Both the position numbers and the translations under genes were made by a program. From Amyelois transitella (Eukaryota > Arthropoda > Insecta > Lepidoptera > Pyralidae), in assembly GCF_032362555.1 (NCBI RefSeq), contig NC_083511.1:10044001-10108000 (forward strand): DNA of 64,000 nt. The letters are read 5' to 3'. Position 1 is the stretch's first letter. Each line of letters opens with the position of its first letter. Below are positions 11,327 through 60,693 of the stretch, in pieces. The notes beneath the pieces were generated by a model. It had not been told where the DNA came from and made no database searches. It saw only the letters and a list, made by a program, of their open reading frames with translations.

Positions 11327-12237
11327 TCAAATATTCAATTTTTTAACCATTAGCGATGTTATGAATTCTTCTGTGTTCTTGTAAGTTGGCTTTTCACCTT
11401 CCGTCCAAAAATTTGATTCTTTTGTTAATTTCTCAGCAGGAAAGTAGTGGATAGATGTATCATTAAAAATGTCTGTATATTTAAAATTGTTTTGCAATAC
11501 AATTTCCGAAGTATGTGGATGGATTTGGAATATGTATGGAACAGTTTCTGATATTATTCTACTAGGATGATTGTCAAACAATGAAGAGAAACTATTGCAA
11601 ATGAGAATACAATTTTGGAGATTGGTAGTCCAGTTGCTCCATAGGAAGTTGTTTGTCAATTGTTTAGGACAGTGAGGCAAGTAGACAAAAGTGATGCCTT
11701 CTTGAGAAATTACATAACTTCCTTCATTATTTTCATCAATTACATCAAGATGTAAACATTTCAATATTTCACATTCATCTTTGTAAAATATCGGATCGTG
11801 TACCAAGACTTTTTGAATATCACACAAACTTTTAAGGCACAGTAAAAAAGCCAATTGGTACCGTGAGATATTGCATTCGCCTATATGTCCTAAACCAAAA
11901 CAAACTATTTCTAAAACTTTTCTACCACCAACAAGTGTACTCACAGATTTAGATATATTAATGAAGTACTCTGATTGCCTCAATTCCTCAACAGCACTCT
12001 GTATTCGGCTGGAAAACATAAAAATACAAATTAAATAACCTCAAAAATATTGGGAATCGCGTAAATATGAAATATAAAGAACCGAACAAAAACTAACCAA
12101 ATAGCTTTATCGATATCTACTTGGGCCTCTTGTTTTACAAAATCAGTGCTATGATTTGGCAATCTTGTTAGATTTTTCGTAGATTTTTTACTTTTTACAA
12201 TTTGAAACCCTTCATTGTCGAAAGACGATTTTGACAT
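11327..12237 (-). CDS. SRRD: SRR1-like domain protein (SRRD), two exons
   Basis: Exons 12098-12237 and 11327-12008 (minus), joined through a GTTAGT donor and a TTTTCCAG acceptor: 140 + 682 nt = 273 aa. The start MSKSSFDNEGFQIVKSKK fits the family's basic N-terminus; an in-frame upstream ATG at 12261 (MTFLSQTK-) is an alternative. The SRR1 domain shows VCFGLGHIGECNISRYQLAF at about residues 82-101, then LVHDPIFYKDECEIL and VYLPHCPKQLTNNFLWSNW. Family knowledge: homologues of plant SENSITIVITY TO RED LIGHT REDUCED 1, linked to circadian output and, in animals, to heme-related growth control; biochemical activity is not settled. The stop is 18 nt upstream of FMC1. Confidence 0.9.
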
Positions 12238-15008: not shown

Positions 15009-15362
15009 ACACTGGTATCGAACACTTACCTATTTTTACGTAAATAAAATTAAAAGTGTTTGTTACTTACAAAAAAAATATTATGCACCACTATTCTGCA
15101 TAGGGTAAAATCAGTTCTCCACAAAACGAATCCCGATTCCCGAATGTACCTATGTGTTTCCTTACCGTATGATTTAAGCCGTAAGAGCATCGAATCGATT
15201 AGCAATAAATTTCACCCCCAAAAGATATGACAATTATTAAGTGATGTTGAATAACCGCGATAAAGGTTGAACCTGGGCTAATGGCTTTTTAGTTTTTCCT
15301 TAACCGTTCTACTACTGAGATTTTTACTAGATATAATTGCCATCTATTTATAAAAAAAATTT

Positions 15363-15628
15363 GCCGTGTGGTTCCCGGCACCAGTACAATAAAGAATAGG
15401 ACCACTCCATCTCTTTCCCATGAATGTCGTAAAAGGCGACTAAGGAATAGGCTTATAAACTTGAGATTCTTTTTTAGGCGATGGGCTAGCAACCTGTCAC
15501 TATTTGAATCTCAATTCTATCATTAAGCCAAATAGCTGAACGTGGCCATTCAGTCTTTTTAAGACTGTTGGCTCTGTCTTCCCCACAAGGGATATAAACG
15601 TTACCATATGTATGTATGTATATATGTA
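15363..15628 (+). mobile_element. SINE-A copy, full length
   Basis: From GCCGTGTGGTTCCCGGCACC to GGGATATAAACGTTACCATATG(TATG)n. A good reference copy. Confidence 0.85.
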
Positions 15629-18010: not shown

Positions 18011-18040
18011 GTTCATGAAGCCACGTAAAATAACACATAT

Positions 18041-18301
18041 ATACATACATACATATAATCACGTCTATATCCCTTACGGGGTAGACAGAGCCAACAGTCT
18101 TGAAAAGACTGATAGGCCACGTTCAGCTGTTTGGCTTAATGATAGAATTGAGATTCAAATAGTGACGGGTTGCTAGCCCATCGCCTAAAAGAAGAATCCC
18201 AAGTTTATAAGCCTATCCCTTAGTCGCCTTTTACGACACCCATGGGAACGAGATGGAGCGGTCCTATTCTTTTTTGTATTGGAGCCGGGAACCACACGGC
18301 A
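18041..18301 (-). mobile_element. SINE-A copy, full length
   Basis: (CATA)n tail at the left, GCCGTGTGGTTCCCGGCTCC head at the right; it lies directly beside the repeat at 17730-18010. Confidence 0.85.
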
Positions 18302-37459: not shown

Positions 37460-38335
37460 ATAAATAGCTTGCTACTGCATATTAAAAATGGCGGAGGGTG
37501 CCACTGGGAACACTTCAAGATGAGAGAGAGATTAAAGTCGATCAAAGGAAAGGCTTATAAACTGGGAAATTTGAGATTCGTCTTTTACTGTTTGCATAAC
37601 ACGAAAGACTCGTAGGTACTGCTGGGTTTCGAGAAATCTTATTTCAGTACACCCCTAGACCACATTAGATTATTACAAGTATTAAGACTGTTTGTCGTAA
37701 AGCGACTTGTAATTTACATTGATAGGATTCAGAAGCTTGCCAGCGTTTTTCTCGATCAGTTACACAATGCTTCAGATAACGTTAAATAACGTTACTCAAT
37801 CAGTTAAATAGACCGCCACCGTTTGTGATTCTTTAATTGCAGTTATAACGAGGCTTTCAGAGCGGAATGTTTGGCTGTATGTGCGTGACGCCTAAACTTG
37901 ACTATGGACATGCATTGATTAGATGTTATATAACATTAAAAAAAACAAAGTCATAGCAATTTCAAAGAGTTAATTTCGGGTTTAATAATAGTAATGATTT
38001 AAAACAACCTCATTGGCAAAGTGGTACAATCATGCAAACCTCTTATATTGAAAATCGGAATTGGATGATGCAAAATGATTTTTCACCATGTCCTTATAGG
38101 TATATTTCCTTGGTCAATCTACTTTAATTCTTCGTCTCCACATGACCAAACCATCTTTAGCGGTTCCTAGAATAAATTTATTATACCCAAGACCCAAGCC
38201 AATCAGGAAAGGTCCAGAAAGGTCATGACCTGGCTGCTAAACTTATATTCCGATTGTAGAAAACTTTAATCGTATCATGCGACAATACATTTCGGAATGC
38301 ATTAAACTTATTAAAAACTAAGTAAACTTTTTTAT

Positions 38336-38592
38336 GCCGTGTGGTTCCCGGCACCAGTACAAAAAAGAATAGGACCACACCATCCCATTCCAATGGATGT
38401 CGTAAAAGGCGACTAAGGGATAGGCTTACAAACTTGCGATTCCATTTTTAGGCGATGGGCTAGCAACCTGTCACTATTTGAATCTCAATTCTATTATTAA
38501 GCCAAATAGCTGAGCGTGGCCTGTCAGTCTTTTCGAGACTGTTGGCTCTGTCTACCCCTGAAGGGATATAGACGTGACCATATGTATGTGTA
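38336..38592 (+). mobile_element. SINE-A copy, full length
   Basis: GCCGTGTGGTTCCCGGCACC to GGGATATAGACGTGACCATATGTATG. Confidence 0.85.
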
Positions 38593-39854
38593 TACTTTTT
38601 CAACTTAAGTTCCTACTCCGTTCATAGTCCTGTTAGTAAATTTCTCTTATACGAGTTCTAGTGAACTCGTTTACCACATTTCCCCTGCGGTTGTGTTATA
38701 AAAAGCGGTAATAAAATGTCTATTATGCCTAGCGTTATTATGTGAAAAGTAGGCGTCTTGCTCGCCTAGAATCCATGAGACTAACGCTCAATGACTTTCA
38801 AATCTTTAAAGCTGCATGCTTAGTAATTTCTTAGTTTCTTGGCCATATTATACATTTTCTTTATCCTTTGTCGTATTTGAAATGAAGTCTGTCAAGATTT
38901 TATTTTGCTATATAACTTAAATTCTTCGCCAAATACTTTAAGAGGTGTTCTACAACCGTTGCAATTGAAAATAAATATATATTTTTGTATTGTTGTTTCA
39001 AGAAAAAAAGGTTGGTACCGCACTTAGGAGAAATTTTGTTCATGGGGAACTATTTATTTCCAAAGGAATTTCTTCCAGTAGGTCCAAAGTAATAATATCT
39101 GTTAAGAAAGTCTTAGAAACTGTGACGACATTGGTTCCACGGTTTTAACACTTGCATGCAAAATCTGACACATTTCATGGTCAGTGATTAGTGCAAAGGT
39201 CAATGTGCTCTACTTACACTTCGCTACATTTTCGGACATAACAAGTTGATACTGGCTGGTTAGAAAAAAGAACATATTTCTATTAAAAATTAAAAGAAAA
39301 AGACGGGAAATCTTATGTATAGGTATACAAATTTCTCATAAGTATTTAAATAGTGCGCTAGGGCAATGCCGGTATTTTTTCTTGTGACATAAAACTGTGA
39401 ATTTATTTAGGTACTGTAAAACCGAAGGACGTCATTTCTAAATATTCAACGCACAGCCTTAAATAGGTGGCAAGGGTAATAACTAAGGGATTTCCTGAAA
39501 TTTCCGCAGGAACCAAAATTAAAACGGTTTTTTTTATTATATTATACACGAGTGGTGCAGTTTTATAAAAAATTACCTTGATGCAAACAGAACAATCAAT
39601 ATTTAATCTGTTAAGAGTTTACTGTAAAGTTCATTTTTGTATCGGTGAATGTAATGAATACGCCTTTTTTTCATAAAATTTAAAATCTTCATCTAACAGT
39701 AAGCGGAATTACTACGCAGAAACAACATTACCTGATGCAGTGAAGTGCAGTTGTAATCACAGCAACGGCCGCATTGCATAGCTTCAACTGGATGTCTCAG
39801 GGTAATGTCTCATTGGATAAGCGGGAGCGGAAACGGAGCGATTGGCGGGTGGGG
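38593..39854. other. Unassigned DNA
   Basis: No gene or repeat identified; a short GC-richer patch lies at 39810-39860. Confidence 0.4.
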
Positions 39855-44208: not shown

Positions 44209-44441
44209 AATAAATAAATATATACGGGACAAATTACACTAATTGAGTTAGCCTCGAAGTAAGTTTGAGACTTGTGTTACGAGATACTAACTCAACGAAA
44301 CTATATTTTATATAAATAAACATCCAAGACCCAGGCCAATCAGAAAAAGTTATTATCTCATCATGCCCTGGCCGGGAAGCGAACCCGGGACCTCCGGTGT
44401 CACAGACAAGCGTACTACCACTGCGCCACAGAGGCCGTCAT
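44209..44441 (-). mobile_element. tRNA-derived SINE, full length
   Basis: Minus strand shows an A box (TGGCGCAGTGG) and B box (GGTTCGCTTCCCGG) at tRNA spacing, then the family body and a TATATATTTATTTATTTAAT tail. This copy proves the tRNA origin of the family. Confidence 0.88.
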
Positions 44442-47683: not shown

Positions 47684-48805
47684 TAGAATAGAATTGTTAT
47701 TGTTTATTAAATTGTTTATTGTTTAAGAAAATAGTTTCCTCTTCCTGGCTATATGGTCTCATTTTGGCAGCATCTCCATTTTTAATAACAATTCTGAAAA
47801 AATAAGTTATATTTTTTCATTTAGTTTTTACAATTAAGTTAGCTATTCGGTCTGTCGTGTAAGCGCGTTGACGATGAGTCGCAATACTCTTAACTGTGAA
47901 GTTGTTCCCTTTCCAAACCTGTTTGTATAACTGTACTATGATAGAAGCTATTTGACGGGTCTATTACACTATCGTAGACTCTATAAAGGTCAGTTGTCGA
48001 ACGGTTATTGTGCCAGACTTAAAAGTTTTGCACAGGTTCAAATCCTATTAATGATTATTCAATCCTTAATTATGTAGGACCAGGATGACCGATTACCGAC
48101 AGCTATGAGAAAGAAATTCTATGAAAGTCTTATCAAGTCGTCATGGGCGTAATAACGTGGCCCGTCCCTGAAAATCATGGATCAGAATTTTGTATTTAAA
48201 AAAAAATGTCTATACACTCTACACTTTGCGACATCTCTACGCCACGTATCACAACAGACAATCACGCGACTGTATCAGCCAATAACAGCGAAGAAGTCAA
48301 ATCGTGCAAGTAAAGATTTGACGGATTTGAGGATATATACAACCCCCGACACAACATCGTCGGAGCCGCGGTTCCCCAGGCATCACACCGAGCCTGGCGG
48401 AAGATCTTCCCTTTGTGGCGGTCGAGCCTAAACTATACACTGATACAGATAAACTGGCGTCCCCGGGATGGGTGAAACCGGCACAAACAGACGGTATCCA
48501 TCGATTGCTTATGGCTATAATTATAAATAATGATAACTTATAACGAAATATTCCTACAATTACCGAGCAATTCAATAGAGATTAAGTATCATTTACCTAC
48601 TACAAAACAATGACTTTAGAAAGGGTCAGATAGGGCGTTGCCCTCTGGGACCTGTTCTACCGGCGATCAACTTTGTTGCAACTGCACCTAGATGCACTTG
48701 AAGACCAAAAACCCAATAATTGTATTTTTCGTGATGACAGAGTCATACATTTTTTTTAAACTAGACATTAAACGCGGTTTTTACTATCGAAGTATATTAT
48801 TATTA
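47684..48805. other. Unassigned DNA
   Basis: No gene supported. 48290-48490 is GC-richer (CCCCCGACACAACATCGTCGG, GGCGGTCGAGCC) and may be a repeat, but I cannot name it. Confidence 0.4.
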
Positions 48806-48947
48806 CATACATATCATCACGTCTATATCTCTTACGGGGTAGACAGAGCCAACAGTCTTGAAAAGACTGAAAGGCCACGTTCAGCTATTTGGCTTAATGA
48901 TAAAATTGAGATTCAAATAGTGGCAGCTTGCCAGCCTGTCGCCTAAA
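48806..48947 (-). mobile_element. SINE-A 3' half, abutting the long hairpin
   Basis: TTACATACATATCATCACGTC ... CAGCCTGTCGCCTAAA, then cut exactly where the hairpin begins. Confidence 0.8.
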
Positions 48948-49363
48948 TTATTGCTAATCAAACTAAAAAATAGAAAATAAAAATTAATGACAAAGGAATT
49001 ATAAAACAGTAGTAGCAAGTCGAACAATCAGTTATAGTCAATTACCTCTGATTAAAATTATAACAAAATTAAATTTATAAACAAAACAATTTAAATCTGA
49101 GTAAAAAGCGTGGGGTGCCTGATGTAGTAAATATTAAAATCATTCTATTAGCATATATTTATGACAAGAGAGTTATGAAAATGAAGTAAAATGCACCCCA
49201 CGCTTTTTACTCTGATTTAAATTGTTTTGTTTATAAATTTAATTTTGTTATAATTTTAATCAGAGGTAATTGACTATAACTGATTGTTCGACTTGCTACT
49301 ACTGTTTTATAATTCCTTTGTCATTAATTTTTATTTTCTATTTTTTAGTTTGATTAGCAATAA
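48948..49363. repeat. Long near-perfect inverted repeat (171-bp arms, 74-bp loop)
   Basis: Left arm 48948-49118 and right arm 49193-49363 are reverse complements at 170 of 171 positions with no gaps (single mismatch at 49098); the loop is 49119-49192. Transcribed RNA from either strand would fold into a duplex longer than 170 bp. It has no coding content, no match to other repeats in the window, and no target duplication that I can see. Possible origins: foldback-type transposon, inverted local duplication, hairpin-RNA (siRNA) locus, or an assembly/sequencing artefact. Confidence 0.95.
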
Positions 49364-49468
49364 AGCGTAGTTTTTTAGTTTTTTTTAAACTATTATTTAT
49401 TTTTTATTTTTTAGTTTGATTAACAATAAAACGCGTAGTTGTTTAGTTTTTTTATACAATTATTTTTT
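49332..49468 (+). repeat. Tandem duplication of about 68 bp at the hairpin's right edge
   Basis: TTTTTTAGTTTGATTAGCAATAAAGCGTAG is followed by a second copy, TTTTTTAGTTTGATTAACAATAAAACGCGTAG. The first copy is partly inside the right hairpin arm. Confidence 0.75.
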
Positions 49469-49613
49469 GGAGGTTAACACTTCTAGTATAACTATCTTAC
49501 TAGAAAAGACTTTCGCAACCATGCGCCCATCGTCGGAGGTTTTCACATCTAACTTTCTTAAAGTTATATGTGGCCTGATTGGATTAAATCTCATAATATT
49601 CTCATCATCATGA
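49460..49613 (-). CDS. Possible terminal coding fragment, unrecognised
   Basis: A minus-strand open frame reads DDENIMRFNPIRPHITLRKL then DVKTSDDGRMVAKVFSSKI and ends LTSKK-stop. The composition is soluble-protein-like and unlike nearby junk, but there is no recognised domain, and the upstream part is cut by a SINE-A insertion at 49614. It could be the last exon of the gene that starts at 49988, or chance. Confidence 0.2.
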
Positions 49614-49772
49614 TTCTTTTTTAGGCGATGGGCTAGCAACCTGTCACTATTTGAATCTCAATTCTATCTTAAAGCCCAATAGCTGAAGGTGGCCTATCAG
49701 TCTTTACAAGACTGTTGGCTCTGTCTACCCCGCAAGGGATATAGACGTGATTATATGTATGCATGTATGTAT
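49614..49772 (+). mobile_element. SINE-A 3' half
   Basis: TTCTTTTTTAGGCGATGGGC ... GGGATATAGACGTGATTATATGTATG. Truncated close to the same internal position as the inverted copy at 48806-48947. Confidence 0.85.
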
Positions 49773-49939
49773 GATGATTGTTAAACCCAGTTGAAAAGAA
49801 TTTTAGAGTGATAAATCATTGTTAATAATATTTTTGACTATCCAGCAAACATAACAATTTTCGATTGTGGCCTTGCCAGGAATCAAACCACAAGATAAAG
49901 AGGCAGATTGGTACAGGAACAAAAATATTTCAAACATAC

Positions 49940-49988
49940 CTCCACTGCCTTTACAACCAGGAACGCAACAAAGTTTATCTGAAGACAT
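49940..49988 (-). CDS. Candidate first exon of a THAP-type zinc-finger gene
   Basis: ATG at 49988 (context ACGATGTC) encodes MSSDKLCCVPGCKGSG before a donor, GGAG|GTATGT. The CxxxC spacing in CCVPGC directly after the start is how THAP (C2CH) DNA-binding domains begin; the partner Cys/His would be in a later exon. The minus-strand leader extends right to at least 50250. THAP domains occur in transcription factors and in P-element-type transposases; which applies here is unknown. Downstream exons were not found with confidence. Confidence 0.4.
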
Positions 49989-50912
49989 CGTGGCACTTTT
50001 GTTGTAAAATCTGTCTTTCACAAAAACAAACACAAACTTGGGACTCCTATCTCAAATAATAAGGTACTTTTTACAGGAGTCCTATCTCAAAATATCTGCA
50101 CAACACAGTCAGAGTCCAATCTCAGATGATAAAATCACACGAATATCCGGAAGAACAAAGCTCGACTCAACGGAAGATTCCAAACTCCAAATAACGACAA
50201 GTTATCAGCACAAAACAAAGTGCAAATAGGTAAATACACAGGCACCGGTAAAAAACAACAGAAAGAAAGTTTACAGGTGTTCGAATCGAATTCAATCAAA
50301 ACTTACTGCAAAACTTATTTGACATAAAAAACTGTCACTCATTTTCCAAACGAGTATTACAGTGTTGCTATTATAAATAGGCAAAAGATACCTAATGTTA
50401 ATTCAAGAATTGCATTAATATGTTAAATACGTATTAAATATCGCAAAGTTCTGTAGGTAGTAACTTTATTCTTGTATTTTTGTAAATTTAGTTGTTCAAT
50501 TTTCATTTATTACTTTTGTTTTATTACTTATATATTTTTTATTGTTTTAAAATATTCTACTATTTCTACTATGGTTTCTAATGGTAATTCTAAATGGAGC
50601 AATGCGATGAAATAAAGAAGCCTCAGGTTAATAGTAACATTATATGGAAATATATTACATCTCTTTTTGACTCATTATACGTCAAAACTTCTTGGTTTCT
50701 TGTATGGAGATTACTGGCACTGGTGCTATCTCTGTCTCTCTTACTCTCATACGAAGGATCTTAAAATGAATTTATTAATCCTGGCAGTTTTAATAAGGAT
50801 AATGAGAAACTCTTATCAAAATATTGCATTGTCATCGGTCCTTGATACGTGTGCAAAGTTCCAAGTTGATCAGACGTTTAGAAATCAGTGAAAATTAAGC
50901 TCAAAGATTCCG

Positions 50913-50914
<2 letters not shown>

Positions 50915-50943
<29 letters not shown>

Positions 50944-50960
50944 CATACATACATACATAC
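50915..50960. repeat. (CATA)n microsatellite, 46 bp
   Basis: About 11.5 uninterrupted units at the tail side of a SINE-A copy; an expanded SINE tail. Confidence 0.9.
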
Positions 50961-50988
50961 AACCCAAGCTAATAAAAGCGTAGTAAAA

Positions 50989-51098
50989 AGAATCCCAAGT
51001 TTGTAAGCCTATCCCTTAGTCGCCTTTTACGACATCCATGGGAAAGAGATGGAGTGGTCCTATTCTTCCTTTTATTGGTGCCGGGAACCACACGGCAC
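50989..51098 (-). mobile_element. SINE-A 5' half next to an expanded tail
   Basis: AAGAATCCCAAGTTTGTAAGCC ... GGTGCCGGGAACCACACGGCA. The tail-proximal body between this part and the microsatellite is replaced by about 28 unrelated bases. Confidence 0.75.
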
Positions 51099-51579
51099 AT
51101 ATTATTATTATCTGTGTTTATTTAAGAATCCAATTATAGACTATATTTTCAATCAAAGTTTTATTAAAGAGTTCCCTTGGGATAAATCTGTTTTCTTTTG
51201 TAGTTTCCGTTTAAATCAAGTGGGCGATAACGCAGGTAAAAGCTAGTGTTTTCTGAAGTGTAAGCCAAAAACAAGTTACCATCATTTCCTGTGAGAAAAA
51301 AAAAATTAAAACATTACATTACTTAAACGAAATTAAAAAAAAACAAAACAAATGAATGTGAGATAATTATAACAGACAATAAGACAATTATGAAATGTAT
51401 CTGACTGCGTCAAATTTAAATTTACGTTAACATCAATGGGAAAGAAAAAAGGCGTATTCATAAACATTTTTATTAACGAGCAGGCATTTTAATGACTTAG
51501 TTGGATGAATGAGAGAATGAGTAAAACGTATTCTCTTATTTATACACCTTAGTTTCTAAAACATTTGTATGCCTTGTTG

Positions 51580-60434: not shown

Positions 60435-60693
60435 TACATACATTCCTATGGTCACGTTTATATCCCTTGCGGGGTAGACAGAGCCAACAGTCTTGAAAAG
60501 ATTGAATGGCCACGTTCAGCTATTTGGCTTAATGATAGAATTGAGCTTCATATAGTGGCAGGTTGCTACCCCATCGCCTAAAAAAGAATCCCAAGTTTGT
60601 ATGCCTATCCCTTAGTCGCCTTTTACGACATCCATGGGAAAGAGATGGAGTGGTTCTACTCTTTTTTGTACTGGTGCCGGGAACCACACGGCA
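60435..60693 (-). mobile_element. SINE-A copy, full length
   Basis: TACATACATTCCTATGGTCACGTTTATATCCC to GGTGCCGGGAACCACACGGCA. Confidence 0.85.

Follow-up and report, generated by a model that had tools for sequence, protein, structure and literature searches.

We regard it as fairly probable that a 416-bp hairpin in a 64-kb stretch of Amyelois transitella DNA (the window) forms the 3' end of a rolling-circle transposon of the non-autonomous, Helentron-like (HINE) type, and that the outer arm of this terminal palindrome would be re-synthesised by fold-back. The evidence comes from the structure of the window copy, from the comparison of its relatives across the host genome and from the distribution of variants between the two arms.

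A near-perfect palindrome in the window

Realignment placed the outer (3'-terminal) arm at 48948-49118 and the inner arm at 49193-49363 (both on the minus strand), separated by a 74-nt loop (49119-49192) that is found in both orientations relative to the transposon body among the copies described below. The arms pair at 170 of 171 positions without gaps, exactly as originally predicted, and the sole mismatch is at 49098. The predicted RNA fold of the 416 nt, whose arms have a GC content of 24%, reached -262.4 kcal/mol, compared with -63.4 ± 5.0 kcal/mol for 100 shuffles. A scan of the 64-kb window for exact 25-mer inverted pairs less than 600 bp apart returned 126 pairs, every one of which starts within 48948-49339, while five mononucleotide shuffles of the window contained no such pair. 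The inverted repeat is far beyond chance.

The statement in the original prediction that the hairpin matches no other repeat in the window is correct overall; the one exception is 49370-49429, where the end of the arm recurs in tandem at 80% identity. Comparison with the outer terminus in 39 copies showed that positions 49364-49399 (plus strand) are an inner inverted copy of the element's 3' terminus, comprising the subTIR and a short stem-loop; the outer counterpart of this terminus is absent at 48947 in the window copy. A second inverted copy of the 3' terminus, diverged and older, lies at 49418-49468 (plus strand), where it was recognised from direct repeats (D1/D2) in a tandem array with a 66-bp unit, and it is also present in relatives.

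Insertion of a 2,037-bp element into a SINE

The hairpin is flanked by the two halves of a SINE. The 3' part of this host SINE (48806-48947, minus strand) is about 86-92% identical to the full-length SINEs of the window and stops where the other half starts on intact copies, and the 5' part (50985-51098, minus strand) tiles with it, so that the two pieces abut with an overlap of 1-2 nt on intact window SINEs. When the flanks are joined across the insert, a full-length SINE is obtained, bounded by an identical 12-nt target-site duplication (ATATTATTATTA) at 48794-48805 and 51099-51110. One SINE was therefore split by a single 2,037-bp insert (48948-50984), across which the SINE halves tile and which reads on the minus strand as a HINE-like non-autonomous transposon with its 5' end at 50984 and its 3' end at 48948. 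The left edge of the hairpin coincides with the left edge of this insert. The SINE T-run at the target has 8 Ts, compared with 6 in the commonest SINE form, so a 2-nt duplication is indistinguishable from the element's own Ts.

Two simpler descriptions of the locus were rejected. An isolated 416-bp TIR or foldback element does not fit, because the SINE resumes 2 kb away and a 1.6-kb body is common to the copies. A palindromic SINE pair formed by 48806-48947 and 49620-49761 (89% identity) was discarded as well, since the left member is the split host and the right one is internal to the element.

The internal member belongs to a SINE 3' fragment at 49612-49773 (plus strand), which is 93% identical to the SINE at 18036-18198 and lies within the aligned body of most fetched copies; it is not found in copy L036 and is deleted in L045. 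Near the 5' end of the element is a (TACA)12 microsatellite (50914-50961, minus strand), and the 5' terminus itself, with the 5' subTIR ACTACGCTTTTATT (50971-50984, minus strand), directly follows a T-run, a boundary common to the copies and recovered with the end pattern. The body contains no ORF longer than 76 aa. One short ORF found in the scan (49803-50033, minus strand) contains MSSDKLCCVPGC, which we take to resemble the start of a THAP-domain protein, and a donor-like GTATGT follows this sequence. A Pfam search of the ORF gave no match; it is possibly the captured first exon of a THAP-type gene.

Copies in the host genome

The original prediction had proposed a genome-wide search for further copies, and this search, which covered 327 Mb in 33 contigs, showed the hairpin to be multi-copy. 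Forty copies were scored out of 492 first-look candidates for the 416-bp hairpin. The 39 loci fetched in addition to the window are the best matches to the window hairpin and hence a biased sample, with hairpins 98.6-100% identical to it. In 38 of them the common body adjoins at least one side of the hairpin, on both sides in L047; the exception, L013, joins a later part of the body as judged by eye. Nearly all of these 38 copies carry about 1.6 kb of body up to the boundary seen in the window, the exceptions being L036 (about 155 nt only), L045 (internal deletion) and L015, L016 and L019 (insertions). The far end of the body is sharp, with ACTACGCTTTTATTAGCTTGGG immediately after a T-run, in the 38 copies considered, which do not include L036, where this end was not found; the T-run has at least five Ts in 35 of the 38 copies and at least two in all of them.

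The 5'-end pattern had 506 matches in the genome at up to two mismatches, and its reversed control none. A second pattern, which links an anchor in the body with the beginning of the loop in the window orientation and so covers the inner half of the hairpin and not the outer arm, had 279 matches, again with none for the control. Among 100 listed 5' ends, 64 had a downstream match to the inner hairpin, 60 with the body to the right of the loop (R) and 4 with it to the left (L), the L matches being drawn from a shorter list with a single anchor and an exact pattern. Two of the 36 ends without a match adjoin known L copies, L038 and L016. In addition, contig C1 has 17 listed 5' ends. With the final two set aside, as well as three whose proximity to a hairpin was already established, a 651-nt stretch was taken from each of the other 12. 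The hairpin was present up to the cut in eight stretches and collapsed in one (L057); it was not seen in the remaining three, one of which (L054) has a pattern match further on. The idea that most 5' ends are without a hairpin was thus wrong, as 8 of the 12 taken had one. The transposon is present in hundreds of copies in the host genome. Viral contigs searched with two 20-22-nt patterns gave no match.

One locus, L047 (G000:C8:10977200-10983600), contains an inverted duplication of about 2.39 kb per side of the hairpin, with no mismatches and one gap, which takes in about 0.8 kb of flank beyond the 5' end. Either the assembly is wrong here or a genuine foldback duplication centred on the hairpin has taken place.

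Variation of the 3' end and target sites

Read from its sharp 5' end, the element terminates in the palindrome in the copies examined. Its arms often remain identical beyond the 171 nt of the window copy: among 39 copies with body, the window included, the additional identity extends over 33-36 nt in 22, 22-26 nt in 8 and 0-14 nt in 9. Full arms thus reach up to 207 bp, and the window copy is short of about 36 of the outer nt. The extension reads AGCGTAGTTTTTTAGTTTTTTTTAAACTATTATTT or a close variant of it; within it lie the 3' subterminal repeat and a stem-loop with a weak stem of 6 bp. The window copy, L011 and L017 have no such extension and end at ...GCAATA(A); these three are 3'-truncated insertions, and the differing arm extensions indicate that several types of 3' end exist. 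Most of these types, not all, are followed by host Ts (by eye).

The 3' stem (TAGTTT/AAACTA, 6 bp) has a folding energy of -2.5 kcal/mol and is weak, with equally good folds in 59 of 200 shuffles when 43 nt were folded and in 4 of 200 when 30 nt were folded. The window copy, L011 and L017 have no such stem, and in the shorter type of 3' end it is cut. Five copies inserted in SINEs have both flanks recognisable (L018, L019, L027, L042 and the window copy), and no long target duplication was found in these five; some bases of the host SINE may be missing in L019 and L027.

Concerted evolution of the two arms

The arms of 47 copies were aligned, namely 38 fetched copies with body, the window copy and eight of twelve later ones, these eight having incomplete outer arms; L013, L054, L056, L057 and L061 were left out. 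Of the 34 arm variants that occur in a single copy, 10 are mirrored, appearing in its two arms alike, and 24 are confined to one arm; 0.03 mirrored private variants would be expected if the arms mutated independently. All 17 carriers of a C>T change at column 69 have it in both arms, and a six-column deletion together with a 12-column insertion is mirrored in all three carriers (L059, L060 and L062). Column 114 (about arm residue 102) is hypervariable, with all four bases among the copies, and its variant is mirrored in 21 copies and in one arm in 4. The mean arm difference is 0.79 within a copy and 2.10 between copies (columns 1-166, 39 copies). The two arms evolve in concert.

The mirrored variants and the smaller difference within than between copies indicate that the near-identity in the window is maintained and is not a sign of recent birth. 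Of the two explanations offered in the original prediction, maintenance by gene conversion or selection is therefore supported in substance, and that of a very recent origin has to be modified: the palindrome is old enough to have formed subfamilies, and it is the arm identity that is kept fresh.

The mirroring is uneven along the arm. All 10 mirrored private variants lie at columns 36-133, while the one-arm variants are split evenly, with 12 up to column 133 and 12 beyond it. This polarity has a Fisher p of 0.006, at a column cut picked after the data were seen, and a p of 0.028 in a rank test without a cut, both from few informative sites. Every carrier of a shared variant at columns 41-104 has it in both arms. 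Outside this range, a column 1 variant is in one arm in two copies, a column 23 variant is mirrored in one copy and in one arm in another, a G at column 159 is in one arm in six of six carriers, and a column 167 variant is mirrored in 5 of 43 carriers and in one arm in 38. Loop-proximal differences therefore probably tend to escape homogenisation, which is the outcome expected if the outer arm is copied from the inner arm by synthesis primed near the loop.

Orientation of the loop

With the loop as reference, the body lies to the right in 21 of 39 copies (L047 counted as right) and to the left in 18, in what is a biased sample. In a tree of 37 bodies, from which L019 (length) and L036 (no anchor) were dropped, three orientation changes are most parsimonious, two of which are forced by well-supported branches; for example, L020 (L) and L025 (R) are sisters, with 100/95 support. 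The mismatch nearest the loop inverts together with the loop in most copies. Exact counts with one and the same anchor gave 39 R and 20 L, dimeric L047 being counted in both, a comparison limited to the subfamilies with that anchor. On this sequence evidence the loop has apparently been inverted at least twice, and its inversion is recurrent and infrequent, though recombination between copies could mimic it. An obligatory flip-flop of the loop was rejected, as the roughly 50:50 ratio stems from the biased sample (21 R, 18 L) and the 100 listed 5' ends gave 60 R and 4 L.

Relation to known elements

According to the parts of Thomas et al. 2014 (PMC4067079) used here, HINEs (DINE-1) are non-autonomous Helentrons with subTIRs of 12-15 bp, one close to the 5' terminus and the other set back from the 3' terminus by tens of bp (38-60 in mites), a short 3' palindrome, a T-rich target that is left unmodified, internal microsatellites or tandem repeats and varying numbers of Ts at the ends. 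The window element is similar in having subTIRs, a 3' stem-loop, a T-rich target with no clear duplication, microsatellite/tandem repeats and a number of terminal Ts that varies. The 14 nt of its 5' subTIR recur in inverse orientation at the 3' end of subfamilies that have AAGCGTAGT there, the 3' subTIR being one T shorter in the window's subfamily, and lie about 28 nt from the 3' end, so subTIRs in the 12-15-bp range are present at both ends. The 5-10-bp palindrome near the 3' terminus of HINEs has its counterpart in the weak 6-bp stem, and a T-rich target without target duplication is seen in the T-runs of 35 of 38 copies and in the five SINE-hosted copies. Unlike the HINEs in these accounts, the window family has a 3' end that is itself a palindrome with 171-207-bp arms, in which the 3' subTIR and stem-loop occur twice, inverted.

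Helitron2 elements (Bao and Jurka 2013, PMC3627910) have asymmetric terminal repeats, of which the 3' repeat is set back by about 20-30 bp from the end, and insert after T-runs in the examples given, two properties shared by the window family. A 5'-terminal hairpin marks that group, whereas none is evident here, and the 3' hairpin of the window family is far larger. The 5' 38 nt, which would hold a Helitron2-type hairpin (the 5' ATIR plus downstream bases), fold at -0.8 kcal/mol, and 29 of 200 shuffles were as good. The canonical Helitron1 ends (5'-TC, CTRR-3', insertion between A and T) were not found either; the element ends are T-run/ACTACGC and ...ATTATTT, with a T-run as target.

The suggestion in the original prediction that the hairpin could be a foldback transposon was right as to a transposon part. 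Foldback elements have long inverted arms with a tandem sub-repeat in the arm end, and the window element has both features. However, its two arms share one end, the far end has no long inverted repeat and only the 14-bp repeat in common with it, and there is no clear target duplication, so a foldback or long-TIR DNA transposon was rejected. Tetris (PMC4079207), Tm1 (PMC3169594) and Galileo (PMC2775673) are elements of the foldback kind.

A partial literature search found no Helitron palindrome comparable to this 3' palindrome with 171-207-bp concerted arms, and the element's end motifs, searched as text in papers, matched only three unrelated ones.

Terminal palindromes are also known from parvoviruses, in which they occur in two loop orientations and take part in rolling-hairpin replication. 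The window family resembles them in having a terminal palindrome with two loop orientations, and the rebuilding of an end by fold-back priming is a proposed analogy; it differs in that the transposon palindrome is at one end only and orientation changes are rare, not equally frequent. AAV (PMC11575299) is a parvovirus of this kind.

A candidate source of transposition proteins was sought with the Rep-domain profile (PF14214), which had 73 matches in the host genome, with long open frames of 1,560-1,908 codons on C8, C11, C17 and C22. The stretches beside two of these matches, which may not reach the ends of the Rep elements, contained no matching element ends. One partial Rep-type element, L049 (G000:C11:91800-94050), has a 1,908-codon open frame with a repeated motif of about 23 residues in its upstream part. 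Contig C32 holds 59 of the 73 matches, many with stops, a concentration that would suit a chromosome rich in Helitrons and perhaps limited to one sex.

A proposed fold-back mechanism and its alternatives

In the mechanism that we favour, a Helentron-type Rep/helicase would act in trans to move the element. Once a single strand or a 3' end is exposed, the palindrome could fold back on itself as a hairpin. Synthesis starting near the loop, with the inner arm as template, could then renew the outer arm, which bears the true 3' end. Re-synthesis of this kind would repair ends that had been trimmed and carry new mutations into both arms, while differences close to the loop would persist, and the window copy would be a 3'-truncated insertion into a SINE, about 36 nt short. 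Priming by fold-back has a precedent at yeast double-strand breaks (PMC10622511), and new 3' ends of the Helitron Helraiser arise by truncation or read-through (PMC4778049), as far as the consulted parts of these two papers go. Mirrored arm mutations, loop-proximal sparing, recurrent loop inversion and the tolerance of truncated ends together suggest, as a bolder and rather doubtful generalisation, that a rolling-circle transposon may heal its own 3' end from an inverted back-up copy held in its terminal palindrome, combining a step like that of rolling hairpins with Helentron transposition.

The arms could instead be homogenised in the chromosome and not during transposition. The element would then be the same HINE-like one, its arms being kept alike by inter-arm gene conversion or by template switching at forks and its loop being inverted by arm recombination, an explanation that deserves serious weight though we would not expect it to hold. 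It draws on nematomorph mitochondria, in which mirrored substitutions keep the arms of inverted repeats identical and template switching is one possible mechanism, and on the gene conversion between human palindrome arms cited in the same paper (PMC6649704, in part). It also agrees with the small number of loop inversions (two forced, three most parsimonious), unlike an obligatory flip per round, and L047, if assembled correctly, would show a hairpin-centred rearrangement in a resident copy. On the other hand, the nematomorph repeats are coding mitochondrial ones, and the few longer ones in which differences occur have them at distal sites or as an indel (PMC6649704). The residual differences of the window family are mostly proximal, and the commonest unmirrored shared ones adjoin the loop, as end-primed copying would leave them. 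That 24 private one-arm variants have stayed unconverted also speaks against chromosomal homogenisation, a weak point that depends on rates.

A further, somewhat unlikely possibility is that the giant palindrome acts mainly as a strong terminator of rolling-circle transposition, as an enlarged form of the 3' Helitron hairpin, and that the mirrored arms are a by-product of repair. Its position at the 3' end in the copies examined is in line with this idea, as is the short 3' hairpin that terminates Helraiser transposition in the part of PMC4778049 considered, but a small, weak 3' stem-loop is already present in the family, and the 3' ends are still variable.

We consider it improbable that the palindrome is an endogenous hairpin-RNA source, transcribed into dsRNA and siRNAs that perhaps silence its own family. 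The predicted fold would give a long, near-perfect RNA duplex, and many near-identical copies exist; however, the arms have 24% GC and only short ORFs around them, a tRNA alone passed the Rfam gathering threshold, with no match for the hairpin, and the palindrome is the end of a dispersed transposon. A usual hpRNA comes from a single locus, unlike a dispersed repeat in hundreds of copies. Finally, palindromes are a known class of assembly artefact and the inverted duplication at L047, with about 2.39 kb per side including flank, is nearly perfect, yet a chimeric palindromic read can hardly explain why copies occur by the hundred at separate sites, why they carry subfamily variants or why a boundary coincides with a SINE split.

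To our knowledge, little is understood of the way in which elements of the Helentron type set and maintain their 3' ends. The hundreds of copies described here form a natural mutation record of arm-onto-arm copying in a terminal palindrome, with a probable copying gradient towards the loop. Fold-back re-synthesis of the 3' end, if true, would be a concrete replication step and would link rolling-circle transposons with terminal-hairpin replicons. The host genome probably also harbours hundreds of long near-perfect hairpins, a potential source of dsRNA and a fragility hazard.

Other features of the window

The SINE-like repeat that hosts the window copy is about 260 bp long, ends in (ATGT)n and has some 20-30 full or partial copies in the window, in both orientations and with many truncated or split; examples are at 2263-2507, 15360-15621, 18054-18298, 38334-38595 and 60447-60691. 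Words from this repeat, searched as text in papers, gave no match. The window also contains a tRNA-His (GTG) gene or pseudogene at 44364-44435 (minus strand), with an Rfam score of 33 against a threshold of 29, and a 237-codon open frame at 11327-12040 (minus strand) that encodes an SRR1 domain (Pfam E 5e-42).
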